From the NCBI RefSeq assembly GCF_002205845.1, contig NZ_NISI01000001.1:496001-560000 (forward strand): DNA of 64,000 nt, given 5' to 3'. Numbering within the stretch: the stretch's first letter is position 1; every line of letters starts with the position of its first letter. Position numbers and translations under genes: made by a program. The stretch comes from Roseateles puraquae. Its GTDB lineage: Bacteria; Pseudomonadota; Gammaproteobacteria; Burkholderiales; Burkholderiaceae_C. This document shows, piece by piece, positions 3,024-11,446 of the stretch. Below the pieces are notes generated by a model. It was not told where the DNA came from and ran no database searches. It was given only the letters and a program-made list of their open reading frames with translations.

Positions 3024-3037
3024 GGATAGCGCTATCC
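3024..3037. promoter_or_regulatory. LacI-type operator in front of the gluconokinase operon
   Basis: Perfect 14-bp palindrome GGATAGCGCTATCC with the central CG typical of LacI-family operators. It ends 33 bp before the gluconokinase ATG. The same sequence recurs before the TonB receptor, and a one-mismatch copy lies before the LacI gene. A TAGGAT hexamer at 3022-3027 could be the -10 element, so bound regulator would block RNA polymerase. Recurrence is seen directly; regulator identity is inferred from proximity. Confidence 0.8.
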
Positions 3038-3070
3038 AAAACGTCGATCTTCTCGCGCCAGCCCCGTCCA

Positions 3071-3568
3071 ATGCCCCCTTCGCCTCCTTCCCTCGTCGTC
3101 ATGGGCGTTGCCGGCAGCGGCAAATCGACTCTCGCCGCCCTGCTGGCCACGCACCTGCAGCGCCCCTGGCTGGAAGGCGATGCCTTCCATACCGAGGCCA
3201 GCCGCCGCAAGATGGCGCAGGGTGAACCGCTCACCGACGGCGACCGGGCCAGCTGGCTCGCCAGCCTCTGCGACCGCCTCCGCCTGGAAGCCGGCGTCAT
3301 CCTGACCTGCTCGGCGCTCAAGCGCAGCTACCGCGAGCAACTGCGCGCTGCAGCGCCGGGCCTGCGTTTCGCTTTCCTGGACATCGACAAGGCCGAGGCC
3401 GACCGGCGGGTGCGCACCCGCGGTGGCCACTTCTTTTCAGCCAGCCTGATCGACAGCCAGTTCGACACCCTCGAACCACCACGGGATGAGCCCGGCGTGC
3501 TGCGCCTGGACGCGCTGCGCCCGCTTTCCGCCCTGCAGGCCGAGGTGGCCGAATGGCTGGCGGCGTGA
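3071..3568 (+). CDS. gntK: Gluconokinase (GntK/IdnK family)
   Basis: Phosphorylates D-gluconate to 6-phosphogluconate with ATP, feeding the Entner-Doudoroff and pentose-phosphate routes. The 165 residues match the usual size of this small kinase. A Walker A loop GVAGSGKS is at residues 12-19, followed by LEGDAFHTEASRRKM (substrate region), LTCSALKRSYR and the C-terminal SQFDTLEPP motif, all typical of GntK. It is the first gene of an operon under the LacI-type palindrome; the next gene starts inside its last codons. Paired with the GH94 phosphorylase downstream, it would consume the gluconate released from an aldonic disaccharide. Shikimate kinase is a distant relative, but the SQF.TLE tail argues for gluconokinase. 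Confidence 0.93.
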   Translation: MPPSPPSLVVMGVAGSGKSTLAALLATHLQRPWLEGDAFHTEASRRKMAQGEPLTDGDRASWLASLCDRLRLEAGVILTCSALKRSYREQLRAAAPGLRFAFLDIDKAEADRRVRTRGGHFFSASLIDSQFDTLEPPRDEPGVLRLDALRPLSALQAEVAEWLAA

Positions 3569-4914
3569 GCGGGCGGCTGACCCGCCGCGAGGTCGTCGGC
3601 TACGGCCTGGGGGACATGGGGTTCAACTTCTACTGGACCAACATCTCCACCTTCCTGCTGATCTTCTACACCGACGTGTTCGGCATCAGCGCCGCGGCCG
3701 CCGCGTCCATGCTCTTCGTGGTGAAGATCTTCAATGCCTTCACCGACCCGCTGATCGGCGCCGCCGCCGACCGCACCCGCACACGCTGGGGCAAGTTCCG
3801 GCCGTTCCTCCTGTTCGGCCCGCTTCCGCTGGCGGCCGTGGGGGTGCTGGCTTTCTGCACGCCCGATCTCGGGCCGAGCGGCAAGCTGATCTGGGCCTGC
3901 GGCACCTACCTGCTGCTGATGACGACCTACACCAGCGTCAACCTGCCCTACAGCGCCCTGTCGGGCGTGCTGTCGGGCGATGCCCGCGAACGCAATGCCA
4001 TCAATGCGTCGCGATTCGTGGCGGGCTTTGCCGGCGGCACCGTGGTCACTGCGGCCTCGCCGCGGCTGGTGCAATGGCTCGGCGGCGGCGACCCGACGCT
4101 CGGCTGGCCGCTCACCATGCTGTTCTGGGGGCTGGCCGCGGCCGTGATCTTCGCGATCAGCTTCAGCACCACCACCGAGCGCGTGCAGCCACCGCAGGCA
4201 CAGCCGGCCAGCATCTGGCAGGACCTGGCCGACCTGCGCAGCAACCGGCCGTGGATCCTGCTCTTCTTCCTGGCGCTCATCATCATGGGCAGCATCACGC
4301 TGCGCATGACCAGCACGGCCTACTACTTCAAGTACGTCGTGAACCGGCCCGAGCTGCTCGCCAGCTTCATGCCGGCGTATCTGCTGGCGGCCGCCGCGGG
4401 CACGGCGCTGACACCGCTGCTGACCCGCTTCATCGACAAGCGCAAGCTCATGATCGGCCTGATGCTCGCCTCCACGCTGCTGTCCGGCGCCTTTCTGCTG
4501 GTGCCGAGCGACAACATCACGATGATGTACGCGCTGCAGATCGGCCTGGGCCTGGCACTCGGGCCGAAGTCGCCGCTGTCGTTCGCCATGCTGGCCGACA
4601 GCGCCGACTACAACGAATGGCGCCACGGCCGCCGCGCCACGGGCATGACCTTCGCGGCAAGCTCGTTTGCCCAGAAGCTGGGCACCGCGCTGGCCGTGGC
4701 CGTCATCGGCGCGATCTTCTCGGCGCTGGGCTATGTGCCCAACGCGGCCCAGTCGGCCGACTCACAGGCCGGCATCGTCTGGCTGATGTCGGTCATCCCG
4801 GCCGCGTTCACCTTGATGGCGGCAGGCCTCATGGTGTTCTACACCCTCGACAACCCCACCATGGCGCGCATCCAGGCTGACCTCGCAGCACGCAAGCGTC
4901 CACCCTCCCCATGA
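3553..4914 (+). CDS. GPH-family (glycoside-pentoside-hexuronide) cation symporter, MFS
   Basis: Inner-membrane sugar:cation symporter of 453 residues with about 12 hydrophobic segments. The family signature region [13 protein letters not shown] near the N-terminus, [19 protein letters not shown] after helix 2-3, and the second-half [16 protein letters not shown] are characteristic of MelB/XylP/UidB-type carriers. The ATG overlaps the gluconokinase end by 16 nt; an in-frame GTG at 3565 forming a GTGA overlap is an alternative start. Its stop overlaps the next ATG (ATGA), so the three genes are probably translationally coupled. From context the substrate is an aldonic disaccharide such as cellobionate; that is inference, since substrate cannot be read from the sequence. 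Confidence 0.9.
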
Positions 4915-7241
4915 TCGAACACCACGACAACGGCGCGCGCTGCGAGCTGACCAGCCCCACCGCCCTGCCCCTGGCCGGCGGCTTTCTGTGGAACCGCCGC
5001 ATGATGATCCAGGTGACCTGCCGCGGCTATGCCACCGCCCAGTTCATGCAGCCCGAACCCGCCAAGTACGCGCATGCGCCGAACCTGGAGGCCAAGACCT
5101 TCATGCAGCCGGAGCAGGCCTACTACGCCCACCATCCCGGTCGCTTCGTCTACGTGAAGGACGAGGACACGGGCGCCCTCTTCTCGGCCCCCTACGAGCC
5201 GGTCCGCGCGCCGCTGGAGCACTTTCGCTTCACGGTCGAACGCGACGCGCTGGGCTGGACGGTCGAGCACCTGGGCCTGCGCGTGCAAATGCGCCTGAGC
5301 CTGCCCACCGACGACGTGGTGGAACTGTGGACGGTGCAGGTCAGCAACCTCTCGGGCCGCCCGCGGCGCATCAGCGTCGTGCCCTATTTCCCGTTCGGCT
5401 ACATGTCGTGGATGAACCAGTCCGCCGAATGGCGGGCTGACCTCGGCGGCATCGTCGCCAGCAGCGTGACGCCCTACCAAAAGGTGGCCGACTACTTCAA
5501 AAATCAGCATCTCAAGGACAAGACCTTCCTGCTGTGCGAGCGCCCGCCCGATGCCTGGGAGGCCGGCCAGGCGGCCTTCGAAGGCGAAGGTGGCCTGCAT
5601 GCCCCGAGCGCACTGCAGTCCGACCAACTGGCCGGTGGCGATGCACGGTACGAGACGCCGGCCGCCTGCGTGCAGTACCGCCTCGCGCTGGCGGACGGCG
5701 AGAGCCAGACCTACCGCTTCCTGTTCGGCCCGGCGCTGGACGATGCCGAGATCGCCCAGCGGCGCGAGCGCTACCTCAGCGAGGCCGGCTTCGCGAAGGC
5801 GCGTGCCGACTACACCGCCTACGTGAACAGCGGCCGGGGCTGCCTGCGCATCAGCTCGCCCGACCCCGACTTCGACCGCTTCGTGAACCATTGGCTGCCG
5901 CGCCAGGTCTTCTATCACGGCGATGTGAACCGCCTGAGCACCGACCCGCAGACGCGCAACTACCTGCAGGACAACCTGGGCATGGCGTTCATCCGGCCCG
6001 CGGCGACCCGCAGCGCGCTGCTGCATGCCCTCAGCCAGCAGGCGGACAGCGGCGCCATGCCCGACGGCATCCTGCTCGTGGAAGGCGCCGAGTTGAAGTA
6101 CATCAACCAGGTGCCGCACACCGACCACTGCGTCTGGCTGCCGCTGTGCCTGCAGGCCTACCTGGCCGAGACCGGCGACTTCGGGCTGCTGGACGAGGCC
6201 GTCAACGGCCGCACCGTGGCGGAACGCCTGGACGCCGCCATGGCCTGGCTGCACCAGGACCGCGATGCCCGCGGCCTGAGCTACATCGCGCAGGGCGACT
6301 GGTGCGACCCGATGAACATGGTGGGCTACCAGGGCCGGGGTGTGTCCGGCTGGCTGACGGTGGCGGCCGCCTACGCCATGAAGCTGTGGGCGAGCCTGTG
6401 CACCGATGCCGGCCGGATCGATGCCGCGGCCCGCTGGCTGCGGGCAAGCGACGAACTCAACCTGGCGGCCAACCAGCACTTGTGGGACGGCGACTGGTTC
6501 GCGCGTGGCATCACCGATGCCGGGGTCGTGTTTGGCGTCAAGGCCGACACCGAGGGCTGCCTCTACCTGAACCCGCAGACCTGGGCGATGCTGTCCGGCG
6601 CAGCGAGCGCCGTGCAGCGCGAGCGCCTGCTCGCCGCCATCGATGCCCAACTCGAAACGCCCCACGGTGTGGCCATGTTCAACCCGCCGTACTCGCGCAT
6701 GCGCGACGACGTCGGCCGGGTCACGCAGAAGCACCCCGGGTCAGCGGAGAACGGCGCCGTCTACAACCACGCTGCTGCGTTCTATGTGCATGCGCTTTAC
6801 GAGATCGGCGATGCCGACCGGGCCTTCAGCGCCTTGCGCCGCATGATCCCGGGGCCGGATGACGCGGACCTCAGGCAGCGCGGCCAGTTGCCGGTGTTCA
6901 TCCCGAACTACTACCGCGGTGCCCACCAGCAGTTCCCGCGCACGGCGGGCCGATCCAGCCAGCTGTTCAACACCGGCACCGCCGCCTGGGCCTACCGCAG
7001 CATCATCGAAGGCCTGTGCGGCTTGAAGGGCTGCGCCGAAGGCCTGCGGGTGCAGCCGCAACTGCCCTCAGGCTGGCGGGATTTCAGCGCGGAGCGCGAG
7101 TTCCGCGGCGCCCGCTTCGTGATGCGCGTAAAGCGCACCGGTCAGGCCCGCGTGACCCTGGACGACCGCCCCCTGCCCGATGGCCTCGTACGAGACATCG
7201 AACCGGGGCGGCACTACCGGCTGGACGTCGAGCTAGCTTGA
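4911..7241 (+). CDS. GH94 phosphorylase, probable cellobionic acid phosphorylase
   Basis: Family GH94 inverting phosphorylase, 776 residues, cytoplasmic (no signal peptide). The N-terminal beta-sandwich starts with the family pattern [10 protein letters not shown]. The (alpha/alpha)6 barrel holds the catalytic-acid motif GDWCDPMN (G462-D466; D466 the likely proton donor) and FIPNYYRG near residue 664. GH94 includes cellobiose, cellodextrin, chitobiose and cellobionic acid phosphorylases. As I recall, Saccharophagus CBAP binds the gluconate carboxylate with Arg609 and Lys613. Here R603 and K607 sit in GRVTQKHPG, with the same spacing from the catalytic Asp (472 there, from memory; 466 here). 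With a gluconokinase in the same operon, cellobionate + Pi to glucose 1-phosphate + gluconate is the best reading. The last 9 nt overlap the convergent LacI gene. Confidence 0.88.
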
Positions 7242-8279
7242 GGCGCGCTTGACGACCTGGAAACCCAGGTCGAGATGCGGCGTCTCCACCGGCTGGCCGC
7301 GCATGAGCTGCATCAGCATCTGCGCGGCCTGGCGCCCGATCTCGCGCCGGGGCGTGGCCACCGTCGTCAAGGGCGGCACCATCTGGTCGCTGCCCGGCAG
7401 GTCGTTGAAGCCGGCCACCGCCACGCGAGCCGGCACCGCCACGCCCAGCCGCAAGGCGGCCAGCAACGCGCCCTGGGCCAGGTCGTCGTTGCAGAAGAAG
7501 ATCGCGTCCGTCTGTGGCGCCTCGCGCAGCACGCGCTCCAACAGGGCTCCGCCCAGGGCCATGGACGAGGGCTCGGCGCTCAGCACCTGGTTCACCCGAT
7601 CCCCCAGCCCGGCCGCCTGCAACTCCGCCACATAACCCTCGCCCCGCTGCATCGTGCGGGGGTCCAGCTGCGCGGCGACATAGGCGATATGGCGCCGCCC
7701 CGTGTCGAGCAGGTGCCGCGTGATCGCCCGGCCCGCGTCTTTCTGCGAGAAACCCACGCTGTAGGCGCCGGCGCCCTCGCCCACTTCCATCAGGCGCACG
7801 CAGGGCACGGCGCTGCCCTCGATCATGGCCTCCGCCGCGGGGCTGCGGTCACTGCCGGTGACGATGAGTCCGGCCGGGCGATGGGCCAGGAAACTGCGCA
7901 GGACGGCCTCTTCTTCGGCCGCGTCATAGTGGGTCACACCGATCAGCGTCTGGTAACCCGCTGGAACCAGGCTGGTCTGCACGGCATCCAGCAACTCGAC
8001 GAACAAGGTGTTGCTGAGCTTGGGAATGAGCACCGCGACATGCGAGCTGCGGCTGGACGCCAGGGCCCGGGCCGCGGGGTCGGGCACGTAGCCCAGGGCG
8101 GCCGCAGCGGCCTGCACGCGCTCCACCAGCTCCGGCGCCACCGCCCGTTCGCCGCGCAGGGCCCGGGACACGGTGATGGGGCTCACGCCGGCCGCCTCGG
8201 CCACATCGGCCAGCGTGACGCGGCCGGTGGCCCGGGTGCGGCGCGTCGGCACGGCGGGGTCGGACTTGGAAGACGGCAT
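7233..8279 (-). CDS. LacI-family transcriptional regulator (GntR/GluR-like)
   Basis: Sugar-responsive repressor of 348 residues. The N-terminal helix-turn-helix [21 protein letters not shown] (about residues 21-41) and hinge helix are followed by a periplasmic-binding-protein-like effector domain beginning [16 protein letters not shown], close to E. coli GntR. The longer reading frame extends through the upstream palindrome, so the ATG at 8279, which gives a normal LacI N-terminus, is preferred. It converges on and overlaps the GH94 gene by 9 nt and is divergent from the TonB receptor. Three near-identical palindromes in front of the operon, the receptor and this gene make it the likely local, autoregulated controller. 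Gluconate or cellobionate is the inferred effector. Confidence 0.93.
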
Positions 8280-8323
8280 GGCTAGAGAGTATCCCCCATA
8301 CCCGCTCGGGACTCGGGCACTTA

Positions 8324-8337
8324 GGATAGCGCAATCC
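8324..8337. promoter_or_regulatory. LacI-type operator copy near the lacI-type gene
   Basis: GGATAGCGCAATCC matches the two perfect palindromes at 13 of 14 positions. It lies 44 bp upstream of the regulator ATG in the divergent intergenic region, which suits autoregulation. A TAGGAT hexamer overlaps its left edge, as at the gluconokinase operon. Confidence 0.7.
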
Positions 8338-8436
8338 CAAAAGGAAACCGGCTGTACCGCTGCCGGTTCCGAAGGGGGCCGCAGCTGCGCCATGACCTCC
8401 GGCGTAGCCCCCGGCCTCCCTTTTTTTCACCAAGCA

Positions 8437-8450
8437 GGATAGCGCTATCC
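8437..8450. promoter_or_regulatory. LacI-type operator in front of the TonB receptor
   Basis: Perfect palindrome GGATAGCGCTATCC, identical to the copy before the gluconokinase operon and at almost the same distance (35 bp) from the downstream ATG. It follows a T-rich run (8421-8427). The site puts outer-membrane uptake under the same control as the cytoplasmic enzymes. Confidence 0.8.
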
Positions 8451-8485
8451 AACCCAACAACAACCCGGACGCACAGGAGACAACG

Positions 8486-11446
8486 ATGCGCCAGCCCTCC
8501 CCCCGCCGCTTGATCCATCTCGCCGCCCTCACCGCCTGCTCGAGCCTCGCCCTCGGCGCGCAGGCGCAAGGCCAGTCCCAACCGGCCGAGCCAGCCCCGC
8601 CTGCCGCAGAGGCCGCCTCCGCGCCCGCGGGCAACGTGCTGAGCCCCGTTGTGGTGTCGGGCTCGCGCATCCAGTCCCGCGGCTTCACGCAGCCCACGCC
8701 CACGACCCGCCTGGTGGCCGCCGATCTGGACAAGACCGCCAAGCCCAACCTCTTCAATGCCATCGCCGAACTGCCGGCCCTGCAAGGCAGCACCGGCCGC
8801 ACCACCAGCACCAACAGCACGAGCAGCGGCATCCAGGGCCTGAGTTCACTCAGCCTGCGCGGCCTCGGGCCGATCCGCACCTTGACCCTGCTGGACGGCC
8901 AGCGCGTGGTCGGCGCCAATGTGACCGGGGTGACGGACGTGAGCCAGTTCCCGCAGTTGCTCGTGCAGCAGGTGGATGTGGTGACGGGCGGCGCGTCGGC
9001 CTCCTACGGCTCGGACGCCGTCGGCGGCGTGGTGAACTTCATCACCGACAAGCGCTTCACCGGCTTCAAGGCCAACATCGAGGGCGGCCAGACGAACTAC
9101 GGCGACGACGAGAACGCCACCCTGCAGGCCGCCTGGGGGCGTGGCTTCATGGCTGGCCGTGCGCACCTGACGGCCAGCGTCGAGTACAGCCGCGAGCGCG
9201 GCGTGCCGTCGCCCCGCTTTGGCGGTGCCGGCGCCAACGGCCGCACCTGGTTCAAGAACCCGGCTTTCCAGGTGCGCCCCATCAGCCAGACGGGCGACGG
9301 CAAGCCGCAATACACCTTCATCGAGAACGCGCAGCAGTTCCAGTACTCGAAGTACGGGCTCATCACGAACGGGCCGCTCCAGGGCACTGCCTTCGGCAAG
9401 GACGGCGTGCCGTACACCTTCCAGTACGGCTCCAACGGCGTACCGACCGGGACCGGGGCCGTCACCGGTTGCGTGACGCCCTTTTGCGTGGGAGGCGACC
9501 TGAGCGGCACGGTCGGCGGTGGCACCACGCTGGGCATGAACATGACGCGCCAGGTGGCCTACACCCGCGGCAGCTTCGAACTCAACGACGACCACGAGGT
9601 CTTCTTCAGCCTGAACTACGGCAAGGTGGACTCGCGCTTCACGCCCAACCCGGGCGCGGCCAAGAACGGCAACCTCACCATCCAGTGCAGCAACCCGTTC
9701 CTGCCGGCCTCCATCGTGGCGGCCTGCGCTGCCAACAACATCACCAGCTTCGCGTACGGCGTGGCCAACGCCATCTTCCCCAAGGACATCGAGGTCAATC
9801 CGGTACGCACCCAGCTCCGCGCCGTGGTGGGTGCCAATGGGCGCTTCAGCGCGCTGGGCAAGGACTGGACCTACGACGGCTACGCCGCCCACGGCCAGAA
9901 CACCATCGACCTGCGCGTGGCCAACATGACGCTGAACGCGCGCTACAACGCCGCCATCGATGCGGTGCGAGGCCCGAACAACACCATCGTCTGCCGCAAT
10001 GCCGCGGCAGCCGCCTCAGGCTGCGTGCCGTTGAACATCATCGGCGACGTGCCCATCGACCCTGCAGCCTGGGCCTACATCGCACCCGCCAACGGCCCGT
10101 TCCAGCATTCACGCCAGCGGCAATCAGTGGCCGGCATCAACGTCAATGGCGAGCCCTTCTCGCTGTGGGCAGGCCCGGTGGCCGTGGCCGTCGGTGCCGA
10201 AGCCCGGCGCGAGCAGTATTACGTGCTGGCCGACCCTTACGGCAACGGCGTGACGGCGGACAGCCCCAACTCGGCCGCCTATCCGGCCGACCCGCTGCTC
10301 AACACCAGCGTCGGCAACAACTGGTACGCCGGCAACTACCACAACGCCCGTGGCGCCTACCACGTGAAGGAAGCCTACCTCGAACTGAACGCGCCGATGT
10401 TCAAGTCAAGCCAGTTCGGTGAAGGCAGCCTCAACCTCGCAGCGCGGCACACGAACTACAGCACCTCCGGCAACATCGACAGCTGGAAGCTCGGCGGCCT
10501 CTGGAAAACCGGGCTCGATGGCCTGCGCCTGCGCGCGGTCACCTCCAAGGACGTGCGCGCCCCCAACCTCAGCGAGCTCTACGCGGCGCCCGTGGTCATC
10601 AACAACACGGTCAACTACCAAGGCACGACCCTGACCGTGCAGCAGCGCACCATCGGCAACACGCAGTTGCGCCCCGAGACCGGCCGCAACACCACCTTCG
10701 GCCTGGTGCTGGCCCAGCCGAAATGGGCACCGGGCTTCAGCGCCTCCATCGACTACTTCGACATCAAGGTCAACGACGTGATCTCGTCGCTGAACGCGCA
10801 GCAGCTGGTCGACCTCTGCGTGGCCGGCAACCAGGAGGTCTGCGCCGCGATGGATCTGGTCAGCCCCACCAAGTACGTGACGGTGCAGGCCTTCAACCTC
10901 GCCTCGATGCGCAACAAGGGCTTCGACCTGGAGGCGGTCTACCGCTTCGGCCTCGCCGGCCTCGGCCTCCCCGGCAACATGACCTTGCGCGGGCTGGCGA
11001 CGAACACGCGCAGCTTCAAGACCAACTCCGGCGTCGTGGGCACCATCCCGACCGAGGCGGCCGGGGTGAACCTGGGCAACACGCCCAAATGGAAAGGCCA
11101 GTTCTCGCAGTCCTGGGAGACCGACACCGCAAGCCTGACGCTGTCACAGCGCTGGATCAGTGACGGGGTCTACAGCAACGAGTTCATCGAATGCCAGACC
11201 AACTGCCCTGTCTCGACGCTCACGCACCCGACCATCCTGAACAACCAGATGAAGGGCGCGCTGTACTGGGACATCGGCGGCTCGTACAGGGTCTCCAAGC
11301 AGGTGACGGTCTACTTCAAGGTCGACAACCTGACCAATGTCGACCCCGTGGCCGCACCGCAGACCGGTACCGGCTATGGGATCAACCCGTTCCTGTATGA
11401 CGTGCTCGGGCGCCAGTACCGCGTCGGCGCCCGACTGGCGTTCTAG
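8486..11446 (+). CDS. TonB-dependent outer-membrane receptor, probable oligosaccharide importer
   Basis: Outer-membrane active transporter of 986 residues. A signal peptide (basic MRQPSPRR, then a hydrophobic stretch ending AQAQG, about residues 1-28) precedes an alanine/proline linker. The plug domain begins at PVVVSGSRIQS and contains SLRGLG, LLDGQRV and GGASASYGSDAVGGVVNF. The large beta-barrel ends with the aromatic C-terminus RVGARLAF needed for barrel assembly. It belongs to the long carbohydrate-type receptors rather than the shorter siderophore group. An ACAGGAGACAACG ribosome-binding stretch precedes the ATG. The shared palindrome links it to the GH94 operon, so it probably brings cellobionate or related oxidised oligosaccharides across the outer membrane; the substrate is inferred. 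Confidence 0.93.
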   Translation: MRQPSPRRLIHLAALTACSSLALGAQAQGQSQPAEPAPPAAEAASAPAGNVLSPVVVSGSRIQSRGFTQPTPTTRLVAADLDKTAKPNLFNAIAELPALQGSTGRTTSTNSTSSGIQGLSSLSLRGLGPIRTLTLLDGQRVVGANVTGVTDVSQFPQLLVQQVDVVTGGASASYGSDAVGGVVNFITDKRFTGFKANIEGGQTNYGDDENATLQAAWGRGFMAGRAHLTASVEYSRERGVPSPRFGGAGANGRTWFKNPAFQVRPISQTGDGKPQYTFIENAQQFQYSKYGLITNGPLQGTAFGKDGVPYTFQYGSNGVPTGTGAVTGCVTPFCVGGDLSGTVGGGTTLGMNMTRQVAYTRGSFELNDDHEVFFSLNYGKVDSRFTPNPGAAKNGNLTIQCSNPFLPASIVAACAANNITSFAYGVANAIFPKDIEVNPVRTQLRAVVGANGRFSALGKDWTYDGYAAHGQNTIDLRVANMTLNARYNAAIDAVRGPNNTIVCRNAAAAASGCVPLNIIGDVPIDPAAWAYIAPANGPFQHSRQRQSVAGINVNGEPFSLWAGPVAVAVGAEARREQYYVLADPYGNGVTADSPNSAAYPADPLLNTSVGNNWYAGNYHNARGAYHVKEAYLELNAPMFKSSQFGEGSLNLAARHTNYSTSGNIDSWKLGGLWKTGLDGLRLRAVTSKDVRAPNLSELYAAPVVINNTVNYQGTTLTVQQRTIGNTQLRPETGRNTTFGLVLAQPKWAPGFSASIDYFDIKVNDVISSLNAQQLVDLCVAGNQEVCAAMDLVSPTKYVTVQAFNLASMRNKGFDLEAVYRFGLAGLGLPGNMTLRGLATNTRSFKTNSGVVGTIPTEAAGVNLGNTPKWKGQFSQSWETDTASLTLSQRWISDGVYSNEFIECQTNCPVSTLTHPTILNNQMKGALYWDIGGSYRVSKQVTVYFKVDNLTNVDPVAAPQTGTGYGINPFLYDVLGRQYRVGARLAF

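Follow-up and report, generated by a model that had tools for sequence, protein, structure and literature searches.

Sequence comparison points to a locus for uptake and phosphorolysis of cellobionic acid in Roseateles puraquae

Oxidised cellulose products arise where lytic polysaccharide monooxygenases (LPMOs) act, and little is known about how they are taken up by bacteria. A locus of Roseateles puraquae raises the question whether one such product, cellobionic acid, is imported by this bacterium and split in the cell with inorganic phosphate. The locus lies in a stretch of 64,000 nucleotides (contig NZ_NISI01000001.1, positions 496,001 to 560,000 of the forward strand), called the window in the following, and encodes a gluconokinase, a GPH-family symporter, a GH94 phosphorylase, a LacI-family regulator and a TonB-dependent receptor. 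Judged from the sequences, it probably takes up and phosphorolytically cleaves cellobionic acid, for which we give a probability of about 0.8.

Layout of the locus

The features are listed with their coordinates in the window; no strand is given for the palindromic operators.

3024..3037: GntR operator palindrome before gntK, exact GGATAGCGCTATCC, 33 nt ahead of the gntK ATG
3071..3568, plus strand: gntK, GntK/IdnK-type gluconokinase, 165 aa (TIGR01313, 164.4 bits, cut-off 113.75)
3553..4914, plus strand: GPH-family cation symporter, 453 aa, probable cellobionate importer (TIGR00792, 380.4 bits, cut-off 231.35)
4911..7241, plus strand: GH94 protein, 776 aa, assigned as cellobionic acid phosphorylase (CBAP) from the match to 4zle chain A, site residues and a tree
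7233..8279, minus strand: gntR, LacI-family gluconate repressor of the Pseudomonas type (NF052440, 528.7 bits, cut-off 400)
8324..8337: GntR operator before gntR, GGATAGCGCAATCC, 1 mismatch
8437..8450: GntR operator before the TonB receptor gene, exact GGATAGCGCTATCC, 35 nt ahead of the ATG
8486..11446, plus strand: TonB-dependent outer-membrane receptor, 986 aa, substrate only inferred (PF00593 and PF07715)

An earlier note on this DNA had described gntK, the symporter gene and the GH94 gene as one overlapping operon, accompanied by a convergent LacI-type regulator gene and by a TonB receptor gene with the same operator. Reading frames and family profiles agree with the operon, in which gntK and the symporter gene overlap by 16 nt and the symporter and GH94 genes by an ATGA. 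The regulator frame on the minus strand ends at 7233, inside the end of the GH94 gene, with a 9-nt overlap between the two convergent genes. The receptor gene has the same operator, as had been described, and its copy of GGATAGCGCTATCC is exact. The gntR open reading frame extends to 8393, but its start is very likely the ATG at 8279, which gives 348 aa, because the longer frame would include the operator and the match to the GntR profile starts at residue 54 of 386. Scans for σ70-like promoters (none, shuffled mean 0.5) and for terminators (4 terminator-like sites, shuffled mean 4.0) were uninformative.

Assignment of the GH94 protein

The catalytic and supersandwich domains of GH94 are present at full length (PF17167 with 187.1 bits at a cut-off of 27, PF06165 with 87.9 bits). 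Among the PDB sequences, the CBAP of Saccharophagus degradans (SdCBAP, 4zle) scored 1151 bits and the other 19 matched sequences at most 180 bits; by type, NdvB reached 180, chitobiose phosphorylase 174, cellobiose phosphorylase 140, laminaribiose phosphorylase 46 and cellodextrin phosphorylase 27 bits. The alignment covers residues 6-774 of 776 in the window protein and 6-783 of the 796-residue SdCBAP chain, with 61.9% identity over this full length. A passage of PMC5309861 gives cellobiose phosphorylase, chitobiose phosphorylase and CBAP as mutually less than 30% identical. Both SdCBAP (Sde_0906, PDB 4ZLE) and XCC4077 of Xanthomonas campestris are entered as characterised CBAPs in a table of PMC8950772. 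The window protein has the same residues as SdCBAP at the four sites compared; the differences noted between the two concern host and gene setting.

Relatives were sought in named bacterial and archaeal genomes; of the 482 obtained, the best 80 loci were kept with flanks of up to 10 kb, and all neighbourhood counts below hold for these nearest relatives. In SdCBAP, R609, K613 and Q190 reportedly bind the carboxylate of gluconate (Nam et al. 2015). The equivalents of these three residues and of Q347, which is placed at subsite +2 in a passage of PMC5309861, were invariant in all 81 aligned proteins (the window's and those of the 80 loci); at the Q190, R609 and K613 positions the window protein has Q190, R603 and K607. 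Uncharged residues stand at the R609/K613 positions in two chitobiose phosphorylases (F/V and L/Y) and in NdvB (Y/Y), in alignments that were judged by eye and held no cellobiose phosphorylases.

A quick tree was computed from 56 of the 96 gathered rows, namely 40 of the 80 loci, the window, SdCBAP, L098 and 13 NdvB-type rows. It split the 43 CBAP rows, including the window and SdCBAP, from the 13 NdvB-type rows with an SH-aLRT of 100. As its outgroup is NdvB-type only, without cellobiose or chitobiose phosphorylases, and long branches meet between its halves, it only places the window among the CBAPs, and for these reasons the score and residue tests outweigh it.

Cellobiose, chitobiose, cellodextrin and laminaribiose phosphorylases were rejected as identities, their scores being more than 6-fold below that of CBAP, and the chitobiose type also on its subsite +1 residues. 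An NdvB-type glucan synthase was rejected as well; a separate 2861-residue NdvB-type frame is found elsewhere in the genome. This frame, noted outside the window at C37:317308-318945, has an NdvB-type GH94 domain and probably encodes a cyclic beta-1,2-glucan synthase. The assignment of the window protein to the CBAPs, which the earlier note had proposed, is therefore well supported at the sequence level by PDB scores, residues and tree. The phylogenetic check set beforehand, grouping with cellobiose or chitobiose phosphorylases, brought no refutation, as the protein groups with the characterised CBAP.

The symporter beside the phosphorylase

Membership of the symporter in the GPH family follows from TIGR00792 above its curated cut-off, and MelB structures match at up to 149 bits. 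Of the 79 loci with sequence ahead of CBAP (L032 is truncated), 76 have a GPH relative in the same orientation whose end lies no more than 400 bases upstream. Relatives of gntK were found in 53 of the 80 loci and GntR relatives (at least 35% identity) in 66, partly at a distance of several kilobases. On this gene association, the GPH protein is likely the cellobionate importer.

The loci with the GPH-CBAP pair include metagenome-assembled genomes (MAGs) of Verrucomicrobiota (L066) and Planctomycetota (L078). Their CBAPs (L066:3332-5680 and L078:2910-5258), each preceded by a GPH relative, branch close to SdCBAP among the proteobacterial rows of the tree. This placement hints that the pair moved between phyla, or that the MAG contigs were mis-binned.

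Comparison within the genus

Of 19 congeners searched, 13 carry CBAP (two of them in two pieces on separate contigs) and six lack it. Outside the genus, neither the 16 genomes searched from the family nor the 24 from other families of the order gave a match at the level of CBAP; the matches in these genomes had 27-37% identity and lay in NdvB-type frames of 2800 residues, with one exception of 911 residues. The GPH orthologue (E ≤ 1e-60) follows CBAP, being present in 12 of the 13 CBAP-positive and in none of the six CBAP-negative congeners. The genome without a GPH match at this threshold (G093) agrees in contig position with locus L005. There, gntK lies directly ahead of the CBAP gene (L005:9479-12328), and no GPH gene adjoins it.

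The exact operator was present in 13 of the 14 genomes with CBAP, the window's own counted (absent in G090). In two CBAP-less congeners, G080 and G077, it is flanked by gluconokinase and by a GntR gene that shares 58-59% identity with that of the window. The stretches fetched there, 16 kb for G080 and 14 kb for G077 (3 kb on one side), gave no match to GPH, CBAP or the window-type receptor. The exact operator was not found in the other four CBAP-less congeners. In G080, gluconokinase is followed by an MFS permease whose best model is the D-galactonate transporter TIGR00893 (283.9 bits, below the cut-off of 395). The simplest reading, inferred from these two genomes, is an exchange, in one direction or the other, between the GPH-CBAP pair and a gluconate permease within a gluconate regulon that was already there. 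It is somewhat probable that GPH-CBAP is a mobile cassette for cellobionate import and cleavage that was inserted into a gntR-operator-gntK regulon in place of a gluconate permease, and that its GPH protein serves bacteria as a transporter of cellobionate.

Regulator and operators

The regulator matches the Pseudomonas-type GntR equivalog NF052440 above its cut-off, and operators centred on AGCGCT lie at its target genes. This core, present before gntK and the receptor gene, agrees with published Pseudomonas GntR operators; an AGCGCA variant stands before gntR. The palindrome has 14 bases, and the third copy, before gntR, which the earlier note had not listed, agrees at 13 of them and suggests autoregulation of gntR.

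Within the window, GGATAGCGCTATCC had three matches at up to 2 mismatches (shuffled mean 0.05). In the whole genome of 6,057,990 bases there were seven such sites, those at the locus with 0, 0 and 1 mismatches and four others with 2, and no further site with at most 1 mismatch was found anywhere in the 6.06 Mb. The reversed operator pattern, used as a control, gave 10 genome sites at up to 2 mismatches, so that 2-mismatch sites are no better than chance and were left uncounted. A genome-wide GntR regulon was accordingly rejected, sites with at most 1 mismatch being confined to this locus. Of the 66 loci that have a GntR relative, 8 carry a looser form of the operator pattern near the gntR start, and every one of these belongs to the 11 nearest loci.

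For P. aeruginosa GntR, gluconate and 6-phosphogluconate are named as effectors in a passage of PMC5902321. By analogy, the window's GntR should sense one of these, i.e. the product side, and since it belongs to the gluconate GntR family, control is probably exerted through the product. The likeness to the Pseudomonas gluconate regulon, as far as described in the consulted parts of PMC5902321 and PMC12195362, lies in the regulator family and the AGCGCT-centred operator; the window's regulon differs in taking in GPH, CBAP and a TonB receptor, in a genome without a GntP permease match.

Proposed route

The TonB receptor would bring cellobionate or short cello-oligosaccharides oxidised at one end into the periplasm; alternatively, cellobionate may enter through porins. 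The GPH symporter would then carry cellobionate together with a cation into the cytoplasm, where CBAP, assigned by class and with its activity known from relatives, would convert it with inorganic phosphate to glucose 1-phosphate and gluconate. Gluconokinase would phosphorylate gluconate to 6-phosphogluconate for the Entner-Doudoroff pathway; the gntK of the window is the sole TIGR01313 match in the genome, and edd is present (920.8 bits). GntR is predicted from its family to repress gntK-GPH-CBAP, the receptor gene and gntR itself and to be released by gluconate or 6-phosphogluconate, which would mean that the pathway is turned on by its own product. Phosphorolysis costs one ATP per disaccharide and hydrolysis two, as glucose 1-phosphate needs none.

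Of the complete five-gene route put forward in the earlier note, the gluconokinase, the symporter and the receptor with its operator are indeed present. Less well supported is the TonB step, the least certain part of the route: the receptor family is found in 8 of the 11 nearest loci (L004-L014), two others lacking it in the fetched stretch and one being truncated.

Alternative explanations

Several observations weigh against uptake and phosphorolysis of cellobionate by these five genes. The GPH relative does not adjoin CBAP in 3 of the 79 loci (L005, L021, L082), and 6 of the 76 GPH matches (L042, L067, L070, L073, L076, L079) are 42-49% identical and in two pieces, so that the GPH partner is not one close lineage throughout. 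The receptor family of the window lies near CBAP in only 10 of the 80 loci. The operator occurs also in two of the six CBAP-less congeners and therefore marks gluconate control rather than cellobionate as such, and the permease swap is suggested by two genomes only. On the side of the substrate, the genome has no PF03067 match for an AA10 LPMO, cellobiose dehydrogenase and other oxidases not having been searched for, and no match to the membrane glucose dehydrogenase TIGR03074; there is thus no sign that the bacterium makes its own substrate.

The locus could serve mainly gluconate utilisation, with gntK, gntR and the operators devoted to gluconate, the GPH protein importing gluconate and CBAP as an accessory. 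Regulator and kinase are indeed of the gluconate type (GntR and gluconokinase), the operator lies between gntR and gntK in the two CBAP-less congeners, and as no GntP permease was matched in the genome, any gluconate that is used has to enter by some other protein. However, the module of G080 has a different MFS permease, in a genome without a GPH match at E 1e-60, the GPH gene follows CBAP in the genus (12/13 against 0/6), and it adjoins CBAP in 76/79 loci, against 53/80 with a gntK relative, which makes this explanation improbable. Slightly more improbable still is that the CBAP-like enzyme acts in nature on a similar acid, for instance a glucosyl-glucuronic acid or a different glucosyl aldonate. 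SdCBAP reportedly accepts glucuronic acid in synthesis (Nam et al. 2015), and glucuronide carriers are among the relatives of the GPH protein (NF007353, 273.9 bits, below the cut-off of 528); on the other hand, the four compared site residues are those of SdCBAP, and gluconokinase and GntR in the same regulon indicate gluconate as the second product.

A narrower alternative touches the receptor alone, which may import something else and share no more than the operator, cellobionate entering by porins. This is possible, if not favoured. The size of cellobionate fits porins, and two of the 11 nearest loci lack this receptor in the fetched stretch. Against it stand the receptor operator, which is exact and among the three genome sites with at most 1 mismatch, and the position of TonB-type genes in other loci: a receptor relative with 62-63% identity lies beside gntK in two Massilia loci (L023, L046), and another family (cluster 56) lies between gntK and GPH in four loci (L016, L017, L018, L026), its member L017:5961-8393 being a TonB receptor by Pfam.

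Source of the substrate

Production of cellobionate by the bacterium itself, through an AA10 LPMO or a membrane glucose dehydrogenase, found no support, as neither was matched in the genome, and a self-contained oxidative cellulose system with its own LPMO was not found. PF00150 (GH5) gave seven matches in the genome, one of them weak; the family also includes non-cellulases. Three of these matches are adjacent on another contig of the genome, outside the window (C39:205705-209199). The PF00150 matches, together with the lack of an AA10 LPMO match, suggest that the bacterium uses cellobionate released by others, probably fungi or other bacteria. The link of the locus to LPMO activity that was drawn in the earlier note is a tentative one.

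Relation to known systems

CBAP and the phosphorylase-gluconokinase route are already known. In Neurospora crassa, the cellobionate route described in PMC4537572 consists of CBT-1, CAP and gluconokinase, with the same order of steps from transporter to phosphorylase to gluconokinase; its importer CBT-1 is a fungal MFS protein, whereas the symporter of the window is of the GPH/MelB type and is accompanied by an outer-membrane receptor and a gluconate repressor of bacterial kind. This fungal protein is the only cellobionate transporter named in the literature consulted. The ong cluster for oxidised chitin in Pseudoalteromonas (PMC9537276) resembles the locus in having a TonB receptor, an inner-membrane symporter, a kinase and a repressor for an oxidised polysaccharide product. 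It differs by periplasmic hydrolysis, an SSS symporter and a MurR/RpiR-family repressor, and no phosphorylase is named in the consulted part of that source.

According to a study in E. coli (PMC4403981), how cellobionic acid gets into the cell is not yet known, and no bacterial cellobionate transporter or receptor was found in literature taken mostly at the level of titles and the beginnings of abstracts, which did not cover Nam et al. 2015. On sequence grounds, the bacterial GPH partner, the exchange of GPH for a permease and the GntR-controlled TonB receptor appear to be the fresh parts of the system. The GPH-CBAP pairing offers a candidate importer for oxidised cellulose products, and the related genomes with and without the pair give a ready comparison.

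Further neighbours of the phosphorylase gene

One member per cluster of neighbour genes was scanned for domains. In other genera, the recurrent neighbours include housekeeping genes (IMP dehydrogenase, GMP synthase, CTP synthase, DAHP synthase), which were not used as evidence. A gene follows CBAP in 20 loci, all of Oxalobacteraceae (12 of Duganella), and its scanned member (L031) is a GH3 glycosidase. In six loci, five of Massilia and one of an Oxalobacteraceae sp. (L050, L051, L058, L059, L061, L072), genes of one family are convergent with CBAP; the scanned member, L058:12330-14285, contains a CBM56 module and weakly matches a domain associated with beta-glucan synthesis.

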